In this document: in pieces, positions 8,342-41,508 of the stretch
Numbering within the stretch: the first letter of the stretch is position 1
How the letters are laid out: every line of letters starts with the position of its first letter
Source: a virus
Strand: one strand, 5' to 3'
IMG/VR virus record: IMGVR_UViG_3300040810_001288
Coordinates: 1-44,195 of that record
DNA length: 44,195 nt
Made by a program: the position numbers and the translations under genes
Notes under the pieces: generated by a model
Told to the model about the DNA's origin: nothing
The model's database searches: none
The model's input: only the letters and a program-made list of their open reading frames with translations

Positions 8342-9025
8342 TTAAATTTTCCCTTGCGATTTGGCTGCACTACTGCTGTAGTGCTCCACGATTTCTGACA
8401 GCCTCTTGTGTGCAATGTCATGCTGCTCCTGGAGAGCCGTGTTGATGATCGGTGTCATGTACTCCTTGATGAAGGATCTCTCCTCTCCAGTCAGTTCCTT
8501 CTTCGCTGCAATCCTCACAATCAAACTCTCAATCCCATTGGCAAAAGCCACCTTCCCTGCATCGCTCTGCTCGGTGATGATGTTCTCAACCAGCTCCACC
8601 GGGATCACCTTTCCCTCAGCTTTGTCCACGGCCAATCGTTTCAACCGGATCTCTGTCTCCAGCTTCTCATTCTGCAGCTCGATCTTCAGCCTGGCCTGCT
8701 TTGCTGCAAGCTTGCTCGCCTCATCGATCTCCCTCAACTCCTCCAGCCTGGCATTGGTCACCTTTGTATTGGTAGTTTGCTCAGCAGCTTCAGGGGCTGT
8801 CTCTGGTTTTTTGGACTTCGGTTTTTTTGCAACTGGTTTCTTCTTGTCCAGGAACTCAGCTCGCTTGTGTTGGCGCAAAGCCAGGAACTCAGCATTGACA
8901 AAATCATTGGAATCGATATGGCCATCCTCATTCGGGATCACCTTCCCTCGCTTGATATAGTTTGACAGGTTCCCTCCGGTCATTCCACACATCTCAGCGT
9001 ATTCTTTTCGGCTATAGATCGGCAT
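8342..9025 (-). CDS. Terminase small subunit / DNA-packaging Nu1-like protein
   Basis: A 227-residue protein with an N-terminal helix-turn-helix of the type that recognises packaging sites (YSRKEYAEMCGMTGGNLSNY, then a basic IKRGKVI wing). A Lys/Pro/Ala-rich linker follows, then a long helical region (ARLEELREIDEASKLAAKQA and RLKIELQNEKLETEIRLKRL) and a C-terminal helix set ending SSSAAKSQGKI. Start is ATG 9023-9025 (MPIYSRKEY); the in-frame extension upstream to 9121 encodes an implausible Cys-rich leader and runs through repeated TTGTAGT motifs. It is the first gene of the packaging and late block, directly before the large terminase, and lies just downstream of the candidate cos region. 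Confidence 0.82.
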   Translation of the reverse strand: MPIYSRKEYAEMCGMTGGNLSNYIKRGKVIPNEDGHIDSNDFVNAEFLALRQHKRAEFLDKKKPVAKKPKSKKPETAPEAAEQTTNTKVTNARLEELREIDEASKLAAKQARLKIELQNEKLETEIRLKRLAVDKAEGKVIPVELVENIITEQSDAGKVAFANGIESLIVRIAAKKELTGEERSFIKEYMTPIINTALQEQHDIAHKRLSEIVEHYSSSAAKSQGKI

Positions 9026-9030
9026 AGTAG

Positions 9031-9038
9031 CAAATGTA
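9031..9038 (-). promoter_or_regulatory. Possible -7 box of the late/packaging promoter
   Basis: The minus strand has TACATTTG, an exact TAnnTTTG, only 5 bases before the terminase small-subunit ATG. That would place transcription start at or beside the ATG. No well-spaced TTTG -33 element is seen: TTG occurrences lie 15 or 24 bases away. Repeated TTGTAGT motifs lie upstream (about 9039-9078) and may be regulator or terminase binding sites. Confidence 0.3.
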
Positions 9039-9291
9039 GTCAAAAAAATACTACAATGACTACAACAAGCAACTACAAAATTTCGAAAAGGTCCAACACA
9101 TAAAAAAATGCGGCTTAGCATCCATTGCGTGGGGGCAAAAAAAATCCCTACAGTACCTTTTTTGAAATCATATAAGAATATGCTTCACACATGCTCTCCT
9201 CTCTACCGCACACACGTACAATCAGAAGGCACCTCCCTCCTCCAATGTGTTTCTTCTCCTGGGGAAATAATATCTTGCAGCAGATGCCCCC

Positions 9292-9302: not shown

Positions 9303-9359
9303 ATGTGATCACCTCGAATCAGAAGATGATCCACAGCGTAGCTCATGACATATGGTATG

Positions 9360-9386
9360 GTTACCTGATCGCATCGATTAGGTGAC
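9360..9386. promoter_or_regulatory. Operator-like imperfect palindrome 1
   Basis: The left arm GTTACCTGATCG (9360-9371) and right arm CGATTAGGTGAC (9375-9386) pair at 10 of 12 positions around a 3-base centre. It is the outermost left member of the GGTTACC family in this region and probably binds a dimeric protein. Confidence 0.6.
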
Positions 9387-9462
9387 AAAACGTTTTTATT
9401 TGGTAACCGCTGCAGACTATGATATTACTAAGGGATATGGAAACAATCAAAGTGTCTATTGG

Positions 9463-9486
9463 GGTACGGTAACCGGTTTGGTAACC
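9463..9486 (+). repeat. 24-bp inverted repeat, left arm
   Basis: These 24 bases are the exact reverse complement of 9716-9739. The arm itself contains two GGTAACC half-sites (9468-9474 and 9480-9486), 12 bases apart. The arms enclose about 230 bases that are extremely AT-rich. Confidence 0.9.
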
Positions 9487-9715
9487 GTATTTTGTAGTAT
9501 TTTAAGGGCTTATATGGAAACGTTACCAAAAAAGGGGTGTTTTTATTATTAAGTGTATAATAAGTAGAATTTTATTTTTTCGTTTTTTTCTCTCTTCTCG
9601 GTTTTTTTAGTCATGTCTGATATTTTATGTTTTTACTTTCTAAAAGGTTTTAATATAAAAAAGTACCAAATATAATCAACGTTTCCTGTATATACCTATA
9701 ATTCAGACAGTTGCA
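9487..9715. other. AT-rich core between inverted repeats, candidate origin
   Basis: The stretch between the 24-bp arms is dominated by T and A tracts (for example around 9541-9560 and 9571-9610). It contains one further half-site (GTTACC, 9522-9527) and no credible ORF. Iteron-flanked AT-rich DNA beside a nuclease gene and the packaging genes is typical of an unwinding element. Origin function is inferred. Confidence 0.4.
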
Positions 9716-9739
9716 GGTTACCAAACCGGTTACCGTACC
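9716..9739 (-). repeat. 24-bp inverted repeat, right arm
   Basis: This is the perfect reverse complement of 9463-9486 and carries GGTTACC at 9716-9722 and 9728-9734. The second half-site also pairs with GGTAACC at 9750-9756 as another imperfect palindrome (9728-9756, 10 of 13 positions). Confidence 0.9.
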
Positions 9740-9823
9740 GGGGCGATTAGGTAACCGCTTGAGATAACTGTCTCAAAATGAAGGGTTTACAGGTTACCAA
9801 ATCGAGGCCATTTTGTCAAAAAA

Positions 9824-9850
9824 GTTACTCAATCGAGTCGATTAGGTAAC
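9824..9850. promoter_or_regulatory. Operator-like imperfect palindrome next to the VRR-NUC promoter
   Basis: The arms GTTACTCAATCGA (9824-9836) and TCGATTAGGTAAC (9838-9850) pair at 11 of 13 positions around one base. The element lies just upstream of the TAAATTTG box of the VRR-NUC gene and would overlap its -33 region, so a bound protein could control that promoter. Confidence 0.6.
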
Positions 9851-9873: not shown

Positions 9874-10323
9874 ATGAGCCATCAATCACTCCAAAGCTTT
9901 GACCAGAGATTTGAATATCTTGAAAAAAGATATGTCCTGGTGAAGGATAAAATGATCAAAAAGGATTTCAAGCTGGAAGATGAATTCCAGTGCAAATTGT
10001 ACTACTTTCTCAGTGGCTTTGAATTGTGGTATCCAGATTTGTTCACTTTCAGTGTTCCAAATGAAGGAGTGAGGCATCCAGCTGTTGCTAAAAAGCTGAT
10101 TTCAATGGGATTGAGAAAAGGTGTGTCAGATATGATCATCATGGGGAATGGAAAGATTGCCTTTGTTGAGAACAAGGTGGCCGGAGGCTATCAGAGCCCG
10201 GCACAGAAGCGATTTCAGGCCATTGTGGAGCTGAATCGGTTCCCATATGCATTGCTCAAGAGCAACATTGATCTGAGAGACCTGGTGAAGCGTGTCCTGG
10301 CTTACCTGTATGAACTGAAATGA
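9874..10323 (+). CDS. VRR-NUC domain nuclease
   Basis: A 149-residue protein and one of only two plus-strand genes. Residues 60-115 carry the VRR-NUC pattern: FSVPNEGVRHPAVAKKL, then GVSDMIIM with Asp86, IAFVENK with Glu99 and Lys101, and SPAQKRFQ with Gln111. Together these form a PD-(D/E)XK-type site with Asp, Glu-x-Lys and Gln. Stand-alone VRR-NUC proteins of phages are thought to act as structure-specific nucleases, for example on Holliday junctions. It reads away from the palindrome array and is followed by a weak hairpin (stem AAGCAAC). A resolvase or packaging role is inferred from family and position. Confidence 0.88.
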   Translation: MSHQSLQSFDQRFEYLEKRYVLVKDKMIKKDFKLEDEFQCKLYYFLSGFELWYPDLFTFSVPNEGVRHPAVAKKLISMGLRKGVSDMIIMGNGKIAFVENKVAGGYQSPAQKRFQAIVELNRFPYALLKSNIDLRDLVKRVLAYLYELK

Positions 10324-14897: not shown

Positions 14898-14940
14898 GCA
14901 ATTTAATTCAAAATAGTTTTATACACAAACTTTACACACT
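14898..14940 (-). promoter_or_regulatory. Early promoter A
   Basis: On the minus strand: TGTGTAAAG, then TTTG (14926-14929), a 20-base spacer and TAAATTGC (14898-14905). This follows the Bacteroidota pattern of TTTG at -33 and TAnnTTTG at -7 with one deviation. It begins immediately after the stop of the upstream gene, shares its upstream box and its AATCAATCACTT leader with promoters B and C, and drives the gene at 14879. Confidence 0.75.
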
Positions 14941-15452: not shown

Positions 15453-17969
15453 TTATTGGTTACTATCTGAAGGGAATGGAAGATCAATCTCAGCCTGTAC
15501 CGGGATCTCCCTATCTCCGAAAATATATGCTTTGCATGGAGTGTATCCATCTTTTATGGTCACACCTTTCTGGAACTTGATGCCATGCTTTTCACACCAC
15601 TCAGCCAGAGCAGAATTGATCTTTTTGGTGGATGGTTGATACCTGTTTTGGATGTCATAGTCCTTGTAATACTTTCGCACATTGTCTGACATGGTGGTTG
15701 CTTTCACCTGGACTCTTTTTTGCCAGGACTCAATGTTTTCTTCAATGATGCCTCTGATCACAGTTCCATAGTTCATAGTGAACTGCTTGATCCATCCAGT
15801 GTCTGAAAGTGCTCGGTTCTGTAGTTTCTTTCCACACTTCATCCAGGCCTGGATTGATTCGGCCATGAAATGATAGTAGTCTGACCAGTCATCCTCATTC
15901 CATCCTTTTGGAAAGTGTTTGCCATATACCTGGTCCACTCCTCCCTTTTTGGTGAAGTAGTCCGAGAACTCCAGGGCAATCAATCTCCTTCTCACACCTC
16001 CATCTGTCACTTCATAACTGTAGTTCGTTAATACTACAATTTTGGGAGTCCTTTCCACTGGCACATCAACCGGGTTCTTGAATAGTCTTCTCCACTTTAT
16101 GGATCCAGAAGCTGCTTCTTTCAGGAATGTGAAGCTGAAGCTTTTTGGAACATCACTGAGGACCATCAGGCGCTCACCATTCCAGGATTGAAAGAATCGC
16201 TCATCATACTGCAGCTGAGATCCATTTGTTGAACATACTGTTGTGAATAAACTGAACAGGGACATGAAGACATTCTTTCCAGCTCCACCTCCTTGCTTTG
16301 GATCTGGAACCTTTTCGGTCAATGTCACTGTGTATGCTGTTGTCTCATCTTTCCATTCATGTGCTAGGAATCCAGAGATCTGTTTCACATAATCATCCAG
16401 GCCAACTGACTTCTTGATGAAATCTGTGAACACTCCTGGCTTCTTCTCCAGGGGAAAACTTCGATCAATGATGTCATTGGCCATGATCAGCTGATCAATT
16501 TCTTTGTAGTCAAGAAGTGTGTATCCTTTTTTTGTGATGTGCAGCACACCATTCTGAAAAAGTTTGTAGCAATTATCCTGGTCATCGCTGAGGATGGCTG
16601 AGGTATCCAGGACAGGCAATCTGCTGATTGTGTAGTTTGTTGATTTCTCCAGGTATTTCTCCAATGCATCACAGATGTCTTCATACAAGTCCACCTCATC
16701 AGCATATATGTAGTCAGAAAGTGCATCCTGGAAGTCTCGAATTGTTTGAGGCTCCACAAACTTCTCATTTTTGATCCTGTGCAGCTCATCATCAATGGTG
16801 GTGAATCCTAGTCCTTGAGCTACCTGGTAGAGTTTGACTCTGGAGATCTTCACCTCATCATTTTTCCCGAACTTCCAATACTCTCCAAGTGGGAGCTTTT
16901 GTTTTATAGCTTCAACAGCTTCATTGTAGACTGTGAGAGCTTCCTCAGAAAAGTTCTTCATTGGAGGCTGTTTTCTTTCAGCCAGGCGCTGAGCTTTTTC
17001 GGCTTCTTTTAGCTTGTTAGCTTTACCAAAGCCATTCTCTATCAGCCAATTGTACAATTGTGAACCATCGAATCCCTCGTATGTTTGGACCAGGAATGAT
17101 GGTGTGTAGTTGACACCTCCCTCCAGGACATCATCCGATGTGGTGAAGCAGTGATAGTATCTTTTTTCTTTATTGAATGAAGCTGATACTCCACCCTTTT
17201 TCCCTTTTCTTGTGTAGTGGATGAAGAGCTTTGACTCTCGATCAAATGTCCATCCATATTTCTGGATGATTTCAGCTCCTTGTTGAGAGTTGTTGAAGTG
17301 ATTGAAAGGATTCTCATTGTAGTAGTTCGACTCCTTGCTTTTTTTGGTCTCTCTCTCCCTTTTGACTCTTTTTCTCTCATTGAGATCTTCAATGATCAAG
17401 AAGATGACTGACATCTCCTCAGCTGTGATCTCCTGGACTTCTGTATCCTTGTGAACGGAATATCCAGCTGAAGGTGGGACCACAATATATGATCCCTCAC
17501 CTCTCATCTCAATTCCGGCTTCTTTCTCATCTTCTTTCCAGGCTAGTTTTTTGGATCTTGGAATGTCTGTCCCTTCAGGAACTCTGAAAAGAATGTGGTA
17601 CCCTCCAGATTGAGTCTTGTGGATCCTGAGTTTGTTCCAAAGATCTGGATATAGATCCTTGATGCTGGAGAAAAGTTTGTGCTCAACACCGCTCCAGTGT
17701 TTGTTGTCGATGTCGATGCAGATGATCCTCCTGGACACCTGCCCCATGATCATCGCAATCCAGTTGGATTTGTGAGCTTCCATTTGGTGGAACAGCTCAC
17801 TTGGTGTGATGATTTTCTCTTGGTATTTTTTCCAGCCTCTGAATGCTGATTTTGGTTCGTATCTTCTGAAATCTGTTTCCTCAGCTTTGTCTCTCACTGG
17901 GATGACACAGTATCCTTGTTCAATGAATTTGACTGCTTGTGTGTAGACTTGGTGAAATGTGGTGCTCAT
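15453..17969 (-). CDS. Primase-polymerase fused to SF3-like helicase
   Basis: An 838-residue replication enzyme. Residues 1-190 look like a bifunctional primase/polymerase domain: CIDID at 84-88 (metal-binding acids), SGGYHILFR at 121-129 and RGEGSYIVVPPS at 156-167. A linker region follows. Residues about 480-700 form a D5/SF3-type ATPase with Walker A QGGGAGKN (559-566), Walker B-like LMVLSD (601-606), sensor KIVVLTNY (643-650) and arginine-rich RRRLIALEF (670-678). The C-terminus looks like a winged-helix part. Such fusions prime and unwind phage DNA. It lies between a helicase gene and small genes, 45 bases after the preceding stop. Confidence 0.9.
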   Translation of the reverse strand: MSTTFHQVYTQAVKFIEQGYCVIPVRDKAEETDFRRYEPKSAFRGWKKYQEKIITPSELFHQMEAHKSNWIAMIMGQVSRRIICIDIDNKHWSGVEHKLFSSIKDLYPDLWNKLRIHKTQSGGYHILFRVPEGTDIPRSKKLAWKEDEKEAGIEMRGEGSYIVVPPSAGYSVHKDTEVQEITAEEMSVIFLIIEDLNERKRVKRERETKKSKESNYYNENPFNHFNNSQQGAEIIQKYGWTFDRESKLFIHYTRKGKKGGVSASFNKEKRYYHCFTTSDDVLEGGVNYTPSFLVQTYEGFDGSQLYNWLIENGFGKANKLKEAEKAQRLAERKQPPMKNFSEEALTVYNEAVEAIKQKLPLGEYWKFGKNDEVKISRVKLYQVAQGLGFTTIDDELHRIKNEKFVEPQTIRDFQDALSDYIYADEVDLYEDICDALEKYLEKSTNYTISRLPVLDTSAILSDDQDNCYKLFQNGVLHITKKGYTLLDYKEIDQLIMANDIIDRSFPLEKKPGVFTDFIKKSVGLDDYVKQISGFLAHEWKDETTAYTVTLTEKVPDPKQGGGAGKNVFMSLFSLFTTVCSTNGSQLQYDERFFQSWNGERLMVLSDVPKSFSFTFLKEAASGSIKWRRLFKNPVDVPVERTPKIVVLTNYSYEVTDGGVRRRLIALEFSDYFTKKGGVDQVYGKHFPKGWNEDDWSDYYHFMAESIQAWMKCGKKLQNRALSDTGWIKQFTMNYGTVIRGIIEENIESWQKRVQVKATTMSDNVRKYYKDYDIQNRYQPSTKKINSALAEWCEKHGIKFQKGVTIKDGYTPCKAYIFGDREIPVQAEIDLPFPSDSNQ

Positions 17970-18376: not shown

Positions 18377-18417
18377 GCAATATAGCTTTTATTTTTATTT
18401 ACACAAAGTTTACACAC
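18377..18417 (-). promoter_or_regulatory. Early promoter B
   Basis: On the minus strand: TGTGTAAAC, then TTTG (18404-18407), a 19-base spacer and TATATTGC (18377-18384). It lies directly after the helicase stop codon and before the gene starting at 18350. The leader ATCAATCACT is shared with promoters A and C. Confidence 0.75.
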
Positions 18418-24202: not shown

Positions 24203-24243
24203 GCAATAATAAGCCATTCATTTTTTATACACAAGCTTTACAC
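24203..24243 (-). promoter_or_regulatory. Early promoter C (start of replication operon)
   Basis: On the minus strand: TGTGTAAAG, then CTTG (24232-24235) and a TATTATTGC box (24203-24211) after a 20-base spacer. A nearly identical upstream box, spacing and ATCAATCACTT leader occur at promoters A and B. It lies between the late terminator and the first early gene. Confidence 0.75.
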
Positions 24244-29698: not shown

Positions 29699-29720
29699 AA
29701 GGCCACCCAAGGGCAGCCTT
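29699..29720 (-). terminator. Hairpin between FI-like and FII-like genes
   Basis: AAGGC-CCC pairs with GGG-GCCTT (29699-29708 with 29711-29720) with two-base internal mismatches, and a T/C-rich run follows on the minus strand. It lies in the gap between two structural genes and may attenuate transcription past the head genes. Confidence 0.5.
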
Positions 29721-29755: not shown

Positions 29756-30154
29756 TTACTTGCCGTTCTCAGCCTCTTTGACCATGTTGAAAAGCATTCC
29801 CTTTGGTGCTTCCTCTGGAATCTCAACCTCAGCATCTTCAAGAGTTTTTTTCATTTCCTCCTCATCAGCTGCCTCGAATTCATCCAGTAGGGTTTTCAAT
29901 TCGGCTTTTTTTGCACTTTTGTTGTACTCAACACCAGCCTCTGTCAAAGCTTCCTTTAGCTCGTTTGAAGTCTTTTCCTTTGGAGCGTCTTCACTCACTA
30001 GCTTCAGTTGTCCACCTCGAACATACTTGTCAGCAACTCCCTCTGGAAATTGATTCTCTGACACGATCTGTCCACATCTGAACACTTTGACATTCTTTCC
30101 CGTAATGCTGTAGCATGTAACTTTGTACTGCTTGTTTTTTTTAGCTTCTGCCAT
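29756..30154 (-). CDS. FI-like head protein with HeH/SAP-type motif
   Basis: 132 residues. The N-terminal part is a small beta domain (KQYKVTCYSITGKNVKVFRC). The middle has TSNELKEALTEAGVEYNKSA and KKAELKTLLDEFEAAD, a helix-extended loop-helix (HeH/SAP-like) arrangement that often binds DNA. The C-terminus is acidic. It sits between the major capsid and FII-like genes, the position of lambda FI. The leader TAATCAACTAAA precedes its ATG. Confidence 0.55.
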   Translation of the reverse strand: MAEAKKNKQYKVTCYSITGKNVKVFRCGQIVSENQFPEGVADKYVRGGQLKLVSEDAPKEKTSNELKEALTEAGVEYNKSAKKAELKTLLDEFEAADEEEMKKTLEDAEVEIPEEAPKGMLFNMVKEAENGK

Positions 30155-39579: not shown

Positions 39580-40329
39580 TTACACGTAATTTACAAATAA
39601 AAGTCCAGAAGCCTCTGCTGGCTTCAAGGTCAAAATCAATCTTCTGAATTCGTCTTTTCTGTTTGCATCAATATCAACAAACAAATCATTTGGATCTGCT
39701 AATGGAAGAGAGTGAGACACAATCCCTCCAGGATAGTTCACTGTCCCAATGTTTGCGGACCCGATATAAAAAGTCCCAATCAAGTTCGAAGGGATCACAT
39801 GCTGCTGGTCCAGCTGCTCATCAATATGGTTCACACACTTGGTGATTCCAAAAGCTCCATGGTTGTACTGGCCATGATTGAAAGGACCATGTGGAAAGGA
39901 TCCCATCTGTGATGGTGAGTACTTGTCAAAGCCTCCAGCTCCATCATCAAATTTGTTCTCATATACATAAACATCAAAGCCAGCTTTTTGAAGTTGGCCC
40001 TGGATGTACAGCTGATGTTGTCTTGCTTTTATGTTGCCAGGAAAAGCCATCTTTCTCAGAATAGCAAGCTTCCTGTCATCAAGAGAAACATTCTCATTGG
40101 TGATCAATCCAAGTCTTCTCTCCCAGTCTGCAGCATCCTCAACAGTGAAGTTGTCATTGTCAGGAATTATGGAGTCCAGGATGGAATTCGTGTCCAGGTA
40201 TGCCTGCATGTAAGACTCAGACAAACCTTTCATCAGTGCCTCAAAATAGGAATTTGCAGGCATCTTGAAAGCCCTTCCTTTTGGGAAGAGCGATTTGAAC
40301 AACAACATCACATCATCCTTCAATGCCAT
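39580..40329 (-). CDS. Tail protein, Mu gp48-like (baseplate I position)
   Basis: 249 residues. N-terminal segments MLLFKSLFPKGRAFKMPANS, YFEALMKGLSESYMQAYLDT and DAADWERRLGLITNENVSLD match the DUF2313 family (Mu gp48, tail protein I-like). The C-terminal part is Gly/His-rich (GSFPHGPFNHGQYNHGAFG) and ends in LILTLKPAEASGLLF. It follows the J-like gene directly (stop and start 1 base apart), which is the standard J then I order. Confidence 0.8.
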   Translation of the reverse strand: MALKDDVMLLFKSLFPKGRAFKMPANSYFEALMKGLSESYMQAYLDTNSILDSIIPDNDNFTVEDAADWERRLGLITNENVSLDDRKLAILRKMAFPGNIKARQHQLYIQGQLQKAGFDVYVYENKFDDGAGGFDKYSPSQMGSFPHGPFNHGQYNHGAFGITKCVNHIDEQLDQQHVIPSNLIGTFYIGSANIGTVNYPGGIVSHSLPLADPNDLFVDIDANRKDEFRRLILTLKPAEASGLLFVNYV

Positions 40330-41508
40330 TTAAACAAAGTTTACAGAGTTACTGAATGGGATCTCATCTTCAATAAATGTGTAGCTGCTGACTGCAGATC
40401 CTCCAACAGTCATGGTCACAGTTGTGAACTGAGCTCCAGGCACTGCTTCAAAAATTGCAGCAATGATGGAGTTCACATCAAGTCGATCATTCTGATCTGC
40501 AGGTATGTCTGCAGTCGAAACAAATGGCCGTACACTATCAATCAACAATCCAATGGAATTGGTGATTGCCGTATCTTTTTCCGGTGTCAAGTCTACAAAT
40601 CCAGCAATATCAATATCAACATCCTGGACATCCACTGGAAGAACATTCACAGTCTCAGCTGTCAATGGTCTCCTGGCTCTCTCTTCAGGTGGTTGTGTTG
40701 GATCTGGATCGAACTCAATCACATCTTCCACCTCAGCCAATATGCTGGGAGTCGGTGTTCCTTTTGAGTCAGCACTGTCTGCAATAGTCGCCTCAACAAA
40801 TACATTCACCTCAGCTGTCCCTCCAGAATTCCGGAATGGATATGATGTCTTCACACCAGCAGCATCAAGGCTCCAAAGGCGGTAATCAGTCCCAGCTCCA
40901 CCTTGTGGCTCAAGCCTCACCTGGAGGATTGCTTTTTGTCGATAATCCTCCAATGTTTCAGCTGCAATCGGCTCAACTGTTTCAGCTGTAACCACTGCAG
41001 ACTGATCCACATTTGTGATCGGCTGAGTCGCTGTCAATGTATCTGCAACCAGGAGCTTTGCTTCCAGTCCTGGAGTCAAGGCTCTGACATTGATTGTGTC
41101 AGTAGCTGCTGTCAAAGTGTATGCTGTATCCAGGATGAACAAATATCCTGGAGATGTGCTGCTGTCATCAGACTTAAATGTTGTTGATTGTGGAATCACA
41201 GCTCCGATCTGACCAGTCACCTGGAGATCATATTCACCAGCTCTGGCTGGATCTGGATTCCTTCCTAGGTAAACACGACCGAACCTCTCCAATGTTCCTC
41301 CCAGGCTTTCTGAATCTGCAGTATCAACAAAGACATTTCTCTGCACAAAACCAATGGAAAGATATATCAACTTCAAAGCTCCAGCCATAACCAAAGCAAA
41401 GATCCTCACAAAGAACTTCCCAATTGGAGGGACAGATATGTTCAATTCAGCCTCAATGTTCGTCTTGATTCGCTGATATAGTTCTGGCGTAGTTGGTATT
41501 GTTACCAT
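40330..41508 (-). CDS. Baseplate J-like protein (Mu gp47)
   Basis: 392 residues. Contains the conserved J features: FFVRIFALVMAGALKLIYLS, FVDTADSESLGGTLERFGRV, GEYDLQVTGQIGAVIPQSTT and ETLEDYRQKAILQVRLEPQG. The central GTDYRLWSLDAAGVKTSYPF segment and a C-terminal beta domain (VDIDIAGFVDLTPEKDTAIT) also fit. It is the wedge protein around the hub. The I-like gene follows directly. Confidence 0.9.
   Translation of the reverse strand: MVTIPTTPELYQRIKTNIEAELNISVPPIGKFFVRIFALVMAGALKLIYLSIGFVQRNVFVDTADSESLGGTLERFGRVYLGRNPDPARAGEYDLQVTGQIGAVIPQSTTFKSDDSSTSPGYLFILDTAYTLTAATDTINVRALTPGLEAKLLVADTLTATQPITNVDQSAVVTAETVEPIAAETLEDYRQKAILQVRLEPQGGAGTDYRLWSLDAAGVKTSYPFRNSGGTAEVNVFVEATIADSADSKGTPTPSILAEVEDVIEFDPDPTQPPEERARRPLTAETVNVLPVDVQDVDIDIAGFVDLTPEKDTAITNSIGLLIDSVRPFVSTADIPADQNDRLDVNSIIAAIFEAVPGAQFTTVTMTVGGSAVSSYTFIEDEIPFSNSVNFV

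Follow-up and report, generated by a model that had tools for sequence, protein, structure and literature searches.

Opposed iterons around an AT-rich core: a candidate replication origin in a tailed phage, with counterparts next to primase-helicase genes in related contigs

The repeat element and the genome that carries it

The IMG/VR virus record IMGVR_UViG_3300040810_001288 comprises 44,195 nucleotides, which were analysed over their full length (positions 1 to 44,195, hereafter the window). Its ends share 127 identical bases and the contig therefore closes into a circle of 44,068 bp. The window encodes a gpA-type TerL, a contractile tail with sheath and tube, capsid, portal, SSB, a helicase, a RecT-like protein and a Prim-Pol. 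The nearest TerL proteins in named phages were those of Flavobacterium and Cellulophaga phages (35-37% identity), which makes a Bacteroidota host likely. The element considered here is a cluster of short repeats, with the terminase small subunit gene (terS; 8342-9025, minus strand) on one side and an adjoining VRR-NUC-like nuclease gene (9874-10323, plus strand) on the other.

A first-pass annotation had pointed out a perfect 24-bp inverted repeat at this locus, with two GGTAACC half-sites per arm, and had judged it very unlikely to arise by chance. We found the arms at 9463-9486 and 9716-9739 to be exact reverse complements (100% over 24 nt) separated by 229 nt, the left arm reading GGTACGGTAACCGGTTTGGTAACC, and the half-sites to be present as GGTAACC/GGTTACC. 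When the whole genome was shuffled 100 times with dinucleotides preserved, the longest perfect inverted repeat (loop of at most 500) measured 18 nt, with a mean of 12.6, and the runner-up in the genome itself measured 15 nt (loop of at most 600), leaving the 24-bp repeat as the longest. The genome has eight exact GGTWACC sites, all of them inside 9359-9798, and 12 GGTAAC-type half-sites at 9360-9850 form two sets that face each other across a core. The extent first given, 9463-9739, is thus real but covers only the inner portion of an element that spans approximately 9359-9850.

The iteron motif of the window is AGGTTACCA. The left set consists of an outer dyad at 9359-9386 (half-sites GGTTACC...AGGTGAC, 21 bp apart), an exact iteron TTGGTAACC at 9400-9408 (plus strand) and the left arm (plus strand), whose two iterons, 12 bp apart, are the innermost ones and point toward the core. 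On the other side, the right arm (minus strand) holds the two innermost right iterons, likewise directed toward the core, and is overlapped by a dyad at 9728-9755 (GGTTACC...GATTAGGTAAC), followed by an exact iteron GGTTACCAA at 9792-9800 (minus strand) and an outer dyad AGTTACTCAATCGAGTCGATTAGGTAAC at 9823-9850. The outer copies are 27-28-bp dyads that make up the direct-repeat family D1. The interior at 9487-9715 is AT-rich as first described, with 25% GC, and is a probable melting element; it holds the GC minimum of the genome, both for 100-bp (20%) and for 200-bp stretches (24%), as well as an additional half-site at 9521-9529 (minus strand).

No relatives turned up when viral_contigs was searched with the nuclease, TerS or TerL as single proteins, and the 24-mer arm was absent from viral_contigs; close relatives in which an inversion of the segment might be seen were not encountered. 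A nucleotide search against phage records and a PDB sequence search gave no match. Elsewhere in the window, a promoter-like sequence resembling GTGTAAAGTTTGTGTATA was seen four times on the minus strand (14920-14937, 18398-18415, 24226-24243 and 40329-40346), immediately upstream of minus-strand genes, with 0.01 expected by chance.

Repeat clusters and primase-helicase genes in relatives

Among relatives identified by TerL (best 80 of 343), a window-type VRR-NUC-like gene (E of at most 0.01) occurred in two of the kept loci, L077 and L072. In both, a strong repeat cluster lay immediately upstream of the nuclease gene, with motifs that differed (AGGTTGCCACAT and AAAGCAGGGTAAA, respectively). 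A relative of the window nuclease in L091 gave a Pfam match to VRR_NUC. Amid the L077 iterons, and unrelated to them in sequence, we also observed a perfect 18-bp inverted repeat with a loop of 18 (982-1035). Repeat scores upstream of terL in L028 and G017 were rejected as false positives, the former being a coding repeat and the latter a coding CATCAT stretch.

A search with the nuclease alignment was used with its best 80 of 140 loci, and of the 82 VRR-NUC loci 80 were testable, two having too little upstream DNA. A cluster was present in 28 of 29 loci with a primase-helicase gene upstream of the VRR-NUC gene and in 4 of the 51 loci lacking such a gene, many of these loci being near-duplicates. 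It is the upstream primase-helicase gene, and not the nuclease by itself, that predicts the cluster. Six full-length members of this protein were scanned, and they were composed of BT4734_N (AEP), PriCT-2 and VapE/DUF5906 domains. Where such a VapE-type gene precedes the nuclease, the cluster of the relatives also lies directly upstream of the nuclease, as in the window.

Primase-helicase loci were then picked by protein alone, regardless of repeats, from viral_contigs (best 80 of 519, with 79 new loci taken in) and from genome_contigs (29 loci). A repeat cluster within 500 bp 3' of the stop codon that scored above all 60 shuffles was found in 75 of 78 testable viral loci, and the genome_contigs loci were mixed, with 17 of 29 above their shuffles (all 29 testable). 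Combined, 92 of 107 testable loci exceeded their shuffles, and in 82 of these 92 the cluster also scored above every other window of its locus. Dereplication left 86 loci. Their inner spacing had a median of 104.5 bp (95-112 bp in 44 of them), the inner copies were opposed in 59, and core GC was below that of the repeat sets in 73. These counts over 86 rows include about 18 in which the motif finder was led astray by (CA)n runs. The repeat sequences themselves varied widely (GTTGCCAC, GGACAGGC, GTAAAGGA, GTGGTCAG, AGGTAATA and others). Conservation of the arms in relatives, which had been suggested as a check on the inverted repeat, is therefore found at the level of architecture and not of sequence, which differs from phage to phage.

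C-terminal winged helices and repeats change together

In near-identical contig pairs, a change in the C-terminal winged helix of the VapE-type protein goes along with a change in the repeat sets, whereas the core and both flanks stay alike. Between L200 and L210, identity per 100 bp was 84-98% from -2100 to -200 bp of the stop codon, dropped to 75 and 61% in the final 200 bp of the gene and to 47 and 13% in the two repeat sets, with 84% in the intervening core, and was 92-99% from +300 to +1100. Their repeats (GTTGCCAC and GACAACTT, respectively) shared no motif. L200 and L209 were 99% alike in the C-terminus and had their motif in common. In eight pairs, the protein outside the C-terminus was at least 93% identical. 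In five of them C-terminal identity was at most 74% and motif sharing at most 0.14, and in the other three C-terminal identity was at least 91% and motif sharing 1.00, 0.95 and 0.21.

The VapE-type C-terminus models as a winged helix, with helices and strands at residues 145-217 and a predicted local distance difference test score (pLDDT) of 74-91 for the block; for residues 151-220 the block score was 81-91. Structural matches included RFX, the AsfvPrimPol C-terminus and the origin-binding domain of phage P4, with Z scores of 5.9-8.2, which are common for winged helices; the P4 domain (1ka8) matched with Z 5.9 over 71 aligned residues at a root-mean-square deviation of 2.6. Variable positions were concentrated in residues 199-220, that is, in the wing and its end. 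Across the C-termini of L200-L260, the wing residues seem to vary in step with the repeat's first half, with SIV accompanying GTTGC and SKV accompanying GGAC. It is possible that this correspondence represents a recognition code.

Proposed origin function, alternatives and known systems

The layout of the element, its counterparts in relatives, the joint change of winged helix and repeats and the GC skew of the window all favour the proposal of the first-pass annotation, namely a replication origin composed of iterons and a melting core rich in AT. We are fairly confident that 9359-9850 is the replication origin of this phage and that the Prim-Pol or putative helicase encoded at 15453-17969 (minus strand) is most likely its initiator, acting by the full mechanism proposed here; the reading is supported, not proven. 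An AEP primase-helicase initiator, most likely this Prim-Pol, would bind the iterons via its C-terminal DNA-binding domain and assemble on either side of the core. The assembly would probably consist of two hexamers facing each other, an arrangement reported for Rep of Staphylococcus aureus pathogenicity islands (SaPI). The initiator would then melt the core, load itself as a helicase and prime synthesis bidirectionally.

The window Prim-Pol has 838 aa and a PF09250 domain at residues 12-174 (49.4 bits, cut-off 22.8). No Pfam helicase match was found in it, and residues 403-714 match phrog_28855, a family of unknown function. Among 33 records of TerL relatives, a relative of this protein (23% over 340-800) was present in G019 only. 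G019 also carries repeats AGGTTCCA with 13 sites (at most 1 mismatch), opposed around a TATATA core and located between the cohesive end (cos) and the Prim-Pol gene, which is the position of the window cluster beside cos and terS. Its motif differs from that of the window in one base, and its VRR-NUC gene had no strong cluster. From this placement and the likeness of the motifs we infer that the window Prim-Pol probably reads the repeats of the window. The window is a divergent version of the arrangement seen in the relatives, with a different Prim-Pol family and a distant initiator gene.

Cumulative GC skew had been named as a further check, and it agreed with an origin in the window but not in the relatives in general. 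For the circle, the detrended curve is lowest at 9259 and highest at 29702, a range reached by none of 2000 block shuffles, and third-position skew differs on either side, though all but one of the tabulated genes there are on the minus strand.

Several observations speak against the origin reading or against parts of it. The skew break of the window lies near the boundary of late and early genes, which is a confounder; in the relatives, skew rises across the cluster in 12 of 21 loci (p 0.11, including L112, which lacks a VapE-type match), and the contig minimum coincides with the cluster in one of five, which is not significant. Skew is therefore minor evidence. The Prim-Pol gene lies approximately 5 kb from the cluster with other genes between, homology of its product to VapE-type proteins was undetected by hhalign (probability 2.1) and the AlphaFold2 model of its C-terminus is poor (pLDDT 32). 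The 229-bp core is twice as long as the usual spacing and has a half-site inside. Regarding the joint change, L212 and L215 keep 94% identity in the C-terminus, yet their motif sharing is only 0.21. Over 50 of the 86 dereplicated loci (those with opposed inner copies, at least 5 sites and a protein of more than 500 aa, up to L277, with L194 excluded by hand), the correlation between motif and protein was weak (partial 0.159, reached in 0 of 500 permutations), and the scan peaked at columns 400-440 (0.166), with slightly lower values in the C-terminal windows (0.13-0.14). The argument for joint change is therefore carried by the near-identical pairs.

Of the alternatives, the one that survives best, though we regard it as unlikely, is an operator cluster without any replicative function, in which a phage regulator would bind the GGTAACC dyads and control the divergent promoters of terS and the nuclease gene. 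The window cluster does lie between divergent genes, its 27-28-bp dyads resemble operators and the head gene block includes a gene for an Arc-like repressor (29756-30154); in addition, a small gene adjoining the L077 cluster was read as helix-turn-helix-like, with no Pfam match. In the relatives, however, the cluster lies between co-directional genes, after the primase-helicase gene, and the repeats change along with the helicase C-terminus, and an AT-rich core at near-constant spacing would be unexpected for operators. A regulatory function in addition to that of an origin is possible.

It is very improbable that the repeats are instead sites of a cos or pac region bound by the terminase small subunit, even though the cluster adjoins terS and the product of this gene was read from its sequence as having an N-terminal helix-turn-helix. 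Contigs of TerL relatives begin at a ATnnATGCGAAGC-like sequence, a motif present in 17 of 60 loci, with the first 13 nt repeated at the opposite contig end in G017 and G018, and a AAGGTACT element precedes this cos-like motif at a similar distance in relatives. The window carries both, a probable cos sequence ATGGATGCTAAGC at 9113-9125 (minus strand) and AAGGTACT at 9152-9159 (minus strand), so that packaging most likely cuts the DNA about 230 bp away from the cluster and thus outside the proposed origin. Moreover, separate ACTACAA-type repeats occur between the cos-like sequence and terS, and the gene that the cluster follows in VapE-type relatives is that of the helicase and not terS. There are three to four of these ACTACAA repeats at approximately 9035-9080, and relatives show GTTGCAACAAA, CAACAA or GTTACA repeats at the same position; repeats of this type are possibly TerS-binding sites.

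Iteron arrays serve partition in some plasmids, and a centromere-like partition or incompatibility site of a plasmid-like phage would be a comparably improbable explanation: no partition protein was recognised among the window genes scanned (part of the open reading frames), and in relatives the cluster is coupled to a replicative helicase. Least credible is an invertible switch with a recombinase flipping the 229-bp segment. Such switches typically have perfect inverted repeats on either side of non-coding DNA, but the record contained no PF00589 tyrosine or PF00239 serine recombinase (controls matched 14/14 and 10/14; a host recombinase is conceivable), and each arm is built from two copies of a repeat of which further, differently oriented copies lie beyond the arms.

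Beyond the replication origin of this one phage, we put forward tentatively that Bacteroidota-type tailed phages may combine a rigid origin architecture, with opposed sets about 105 bp apart around a melting core, and iterons that rapidly change together with the winged helix as an exchangeable recognition cassette. The window would then represent a separate solution, its origin uncoupled from the initiator gene and placed beside cos. If this is true, the rapid change could reflect escape from origin-stealing satellites, from co-infecting relatives or from origin-directed host defence. Near-identical contigs that differ mainly in reader domain and repeats amount to a natural swap experiment, through which the DNA-recognition code of a primase-helicase, and why it changes so fast, can be tested directly. 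In the open-access literature searched, we recognised no report that describes Bacteroidota phages as having hypervariable iterons that co-vary with their initiators.

Components of this arrangement are known from other systems. The alpha protein of phage P4 unites primase, helicase and a C-terminal winged-helix origin-binding domain in one protein, and its origin reportedly lies apart from the alpha gene with GGTGAACA-type iterons; the structural match to 1ka8, however, concerns the domain of the VapE-type relatives and not the window protein. ORF904 of pRN1 likewise combines an AEP primase, a superfamily 3 helicase and a winged helix, and excerpts of PMC4234260 describe an inverted-repeat structure of approximately 100 bp 3' of the gene, the sequence of which is the least conserved part, and mention similar structures in some phages. 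Unlike the element described here, this origin is presented there as a stem-loop and not as iteron sets, and it belongs to an archaeal plasmid. Cch2 of the staphylococcal cassette chromosome SCCmec is a helicase that loads itself and binds, via its C-terminal domain, to repeats located downstream of the gene, but passages of PMC7581432 give three short direct repeats only and a primase that is a separate protein. VapE ATPases have been predicted as helicases of mobile elements (in part of PMC5862659), and adjacency of VapE and VRR-NUC has been published for a Faecalibacterium phage (in part of PMC13432834).

The layout and the would-be working of the element match the origins of SaPI and other phage-inducible chromosomal islands (PICI). 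According to sections of PMC6092414 and PMC7581432, their pri-rep-ori module has a primase-helicase-type initiator whose C-terminal domain reads iterons, with the origin immediately 3' of the gene, as is the case in the VapE-type relatives. The window shares with them left and right iteron sets around a core of 25% GC that holds the genome minimum. It differs in its initiator gene located approximately 5 kb away, its PF09250 Prim-Pol and a core about twice as long, and also in not being a satellite, as it carries its own terminase, portal, capsid, sheath and tube genes. Lacking both adjacency and satellite status, the window is therefore best seen as a variant that would work like PICI origins and not as a member of this group, and an origin organisation known from SaPI/PICI appears here in many tailed-phage contigs.
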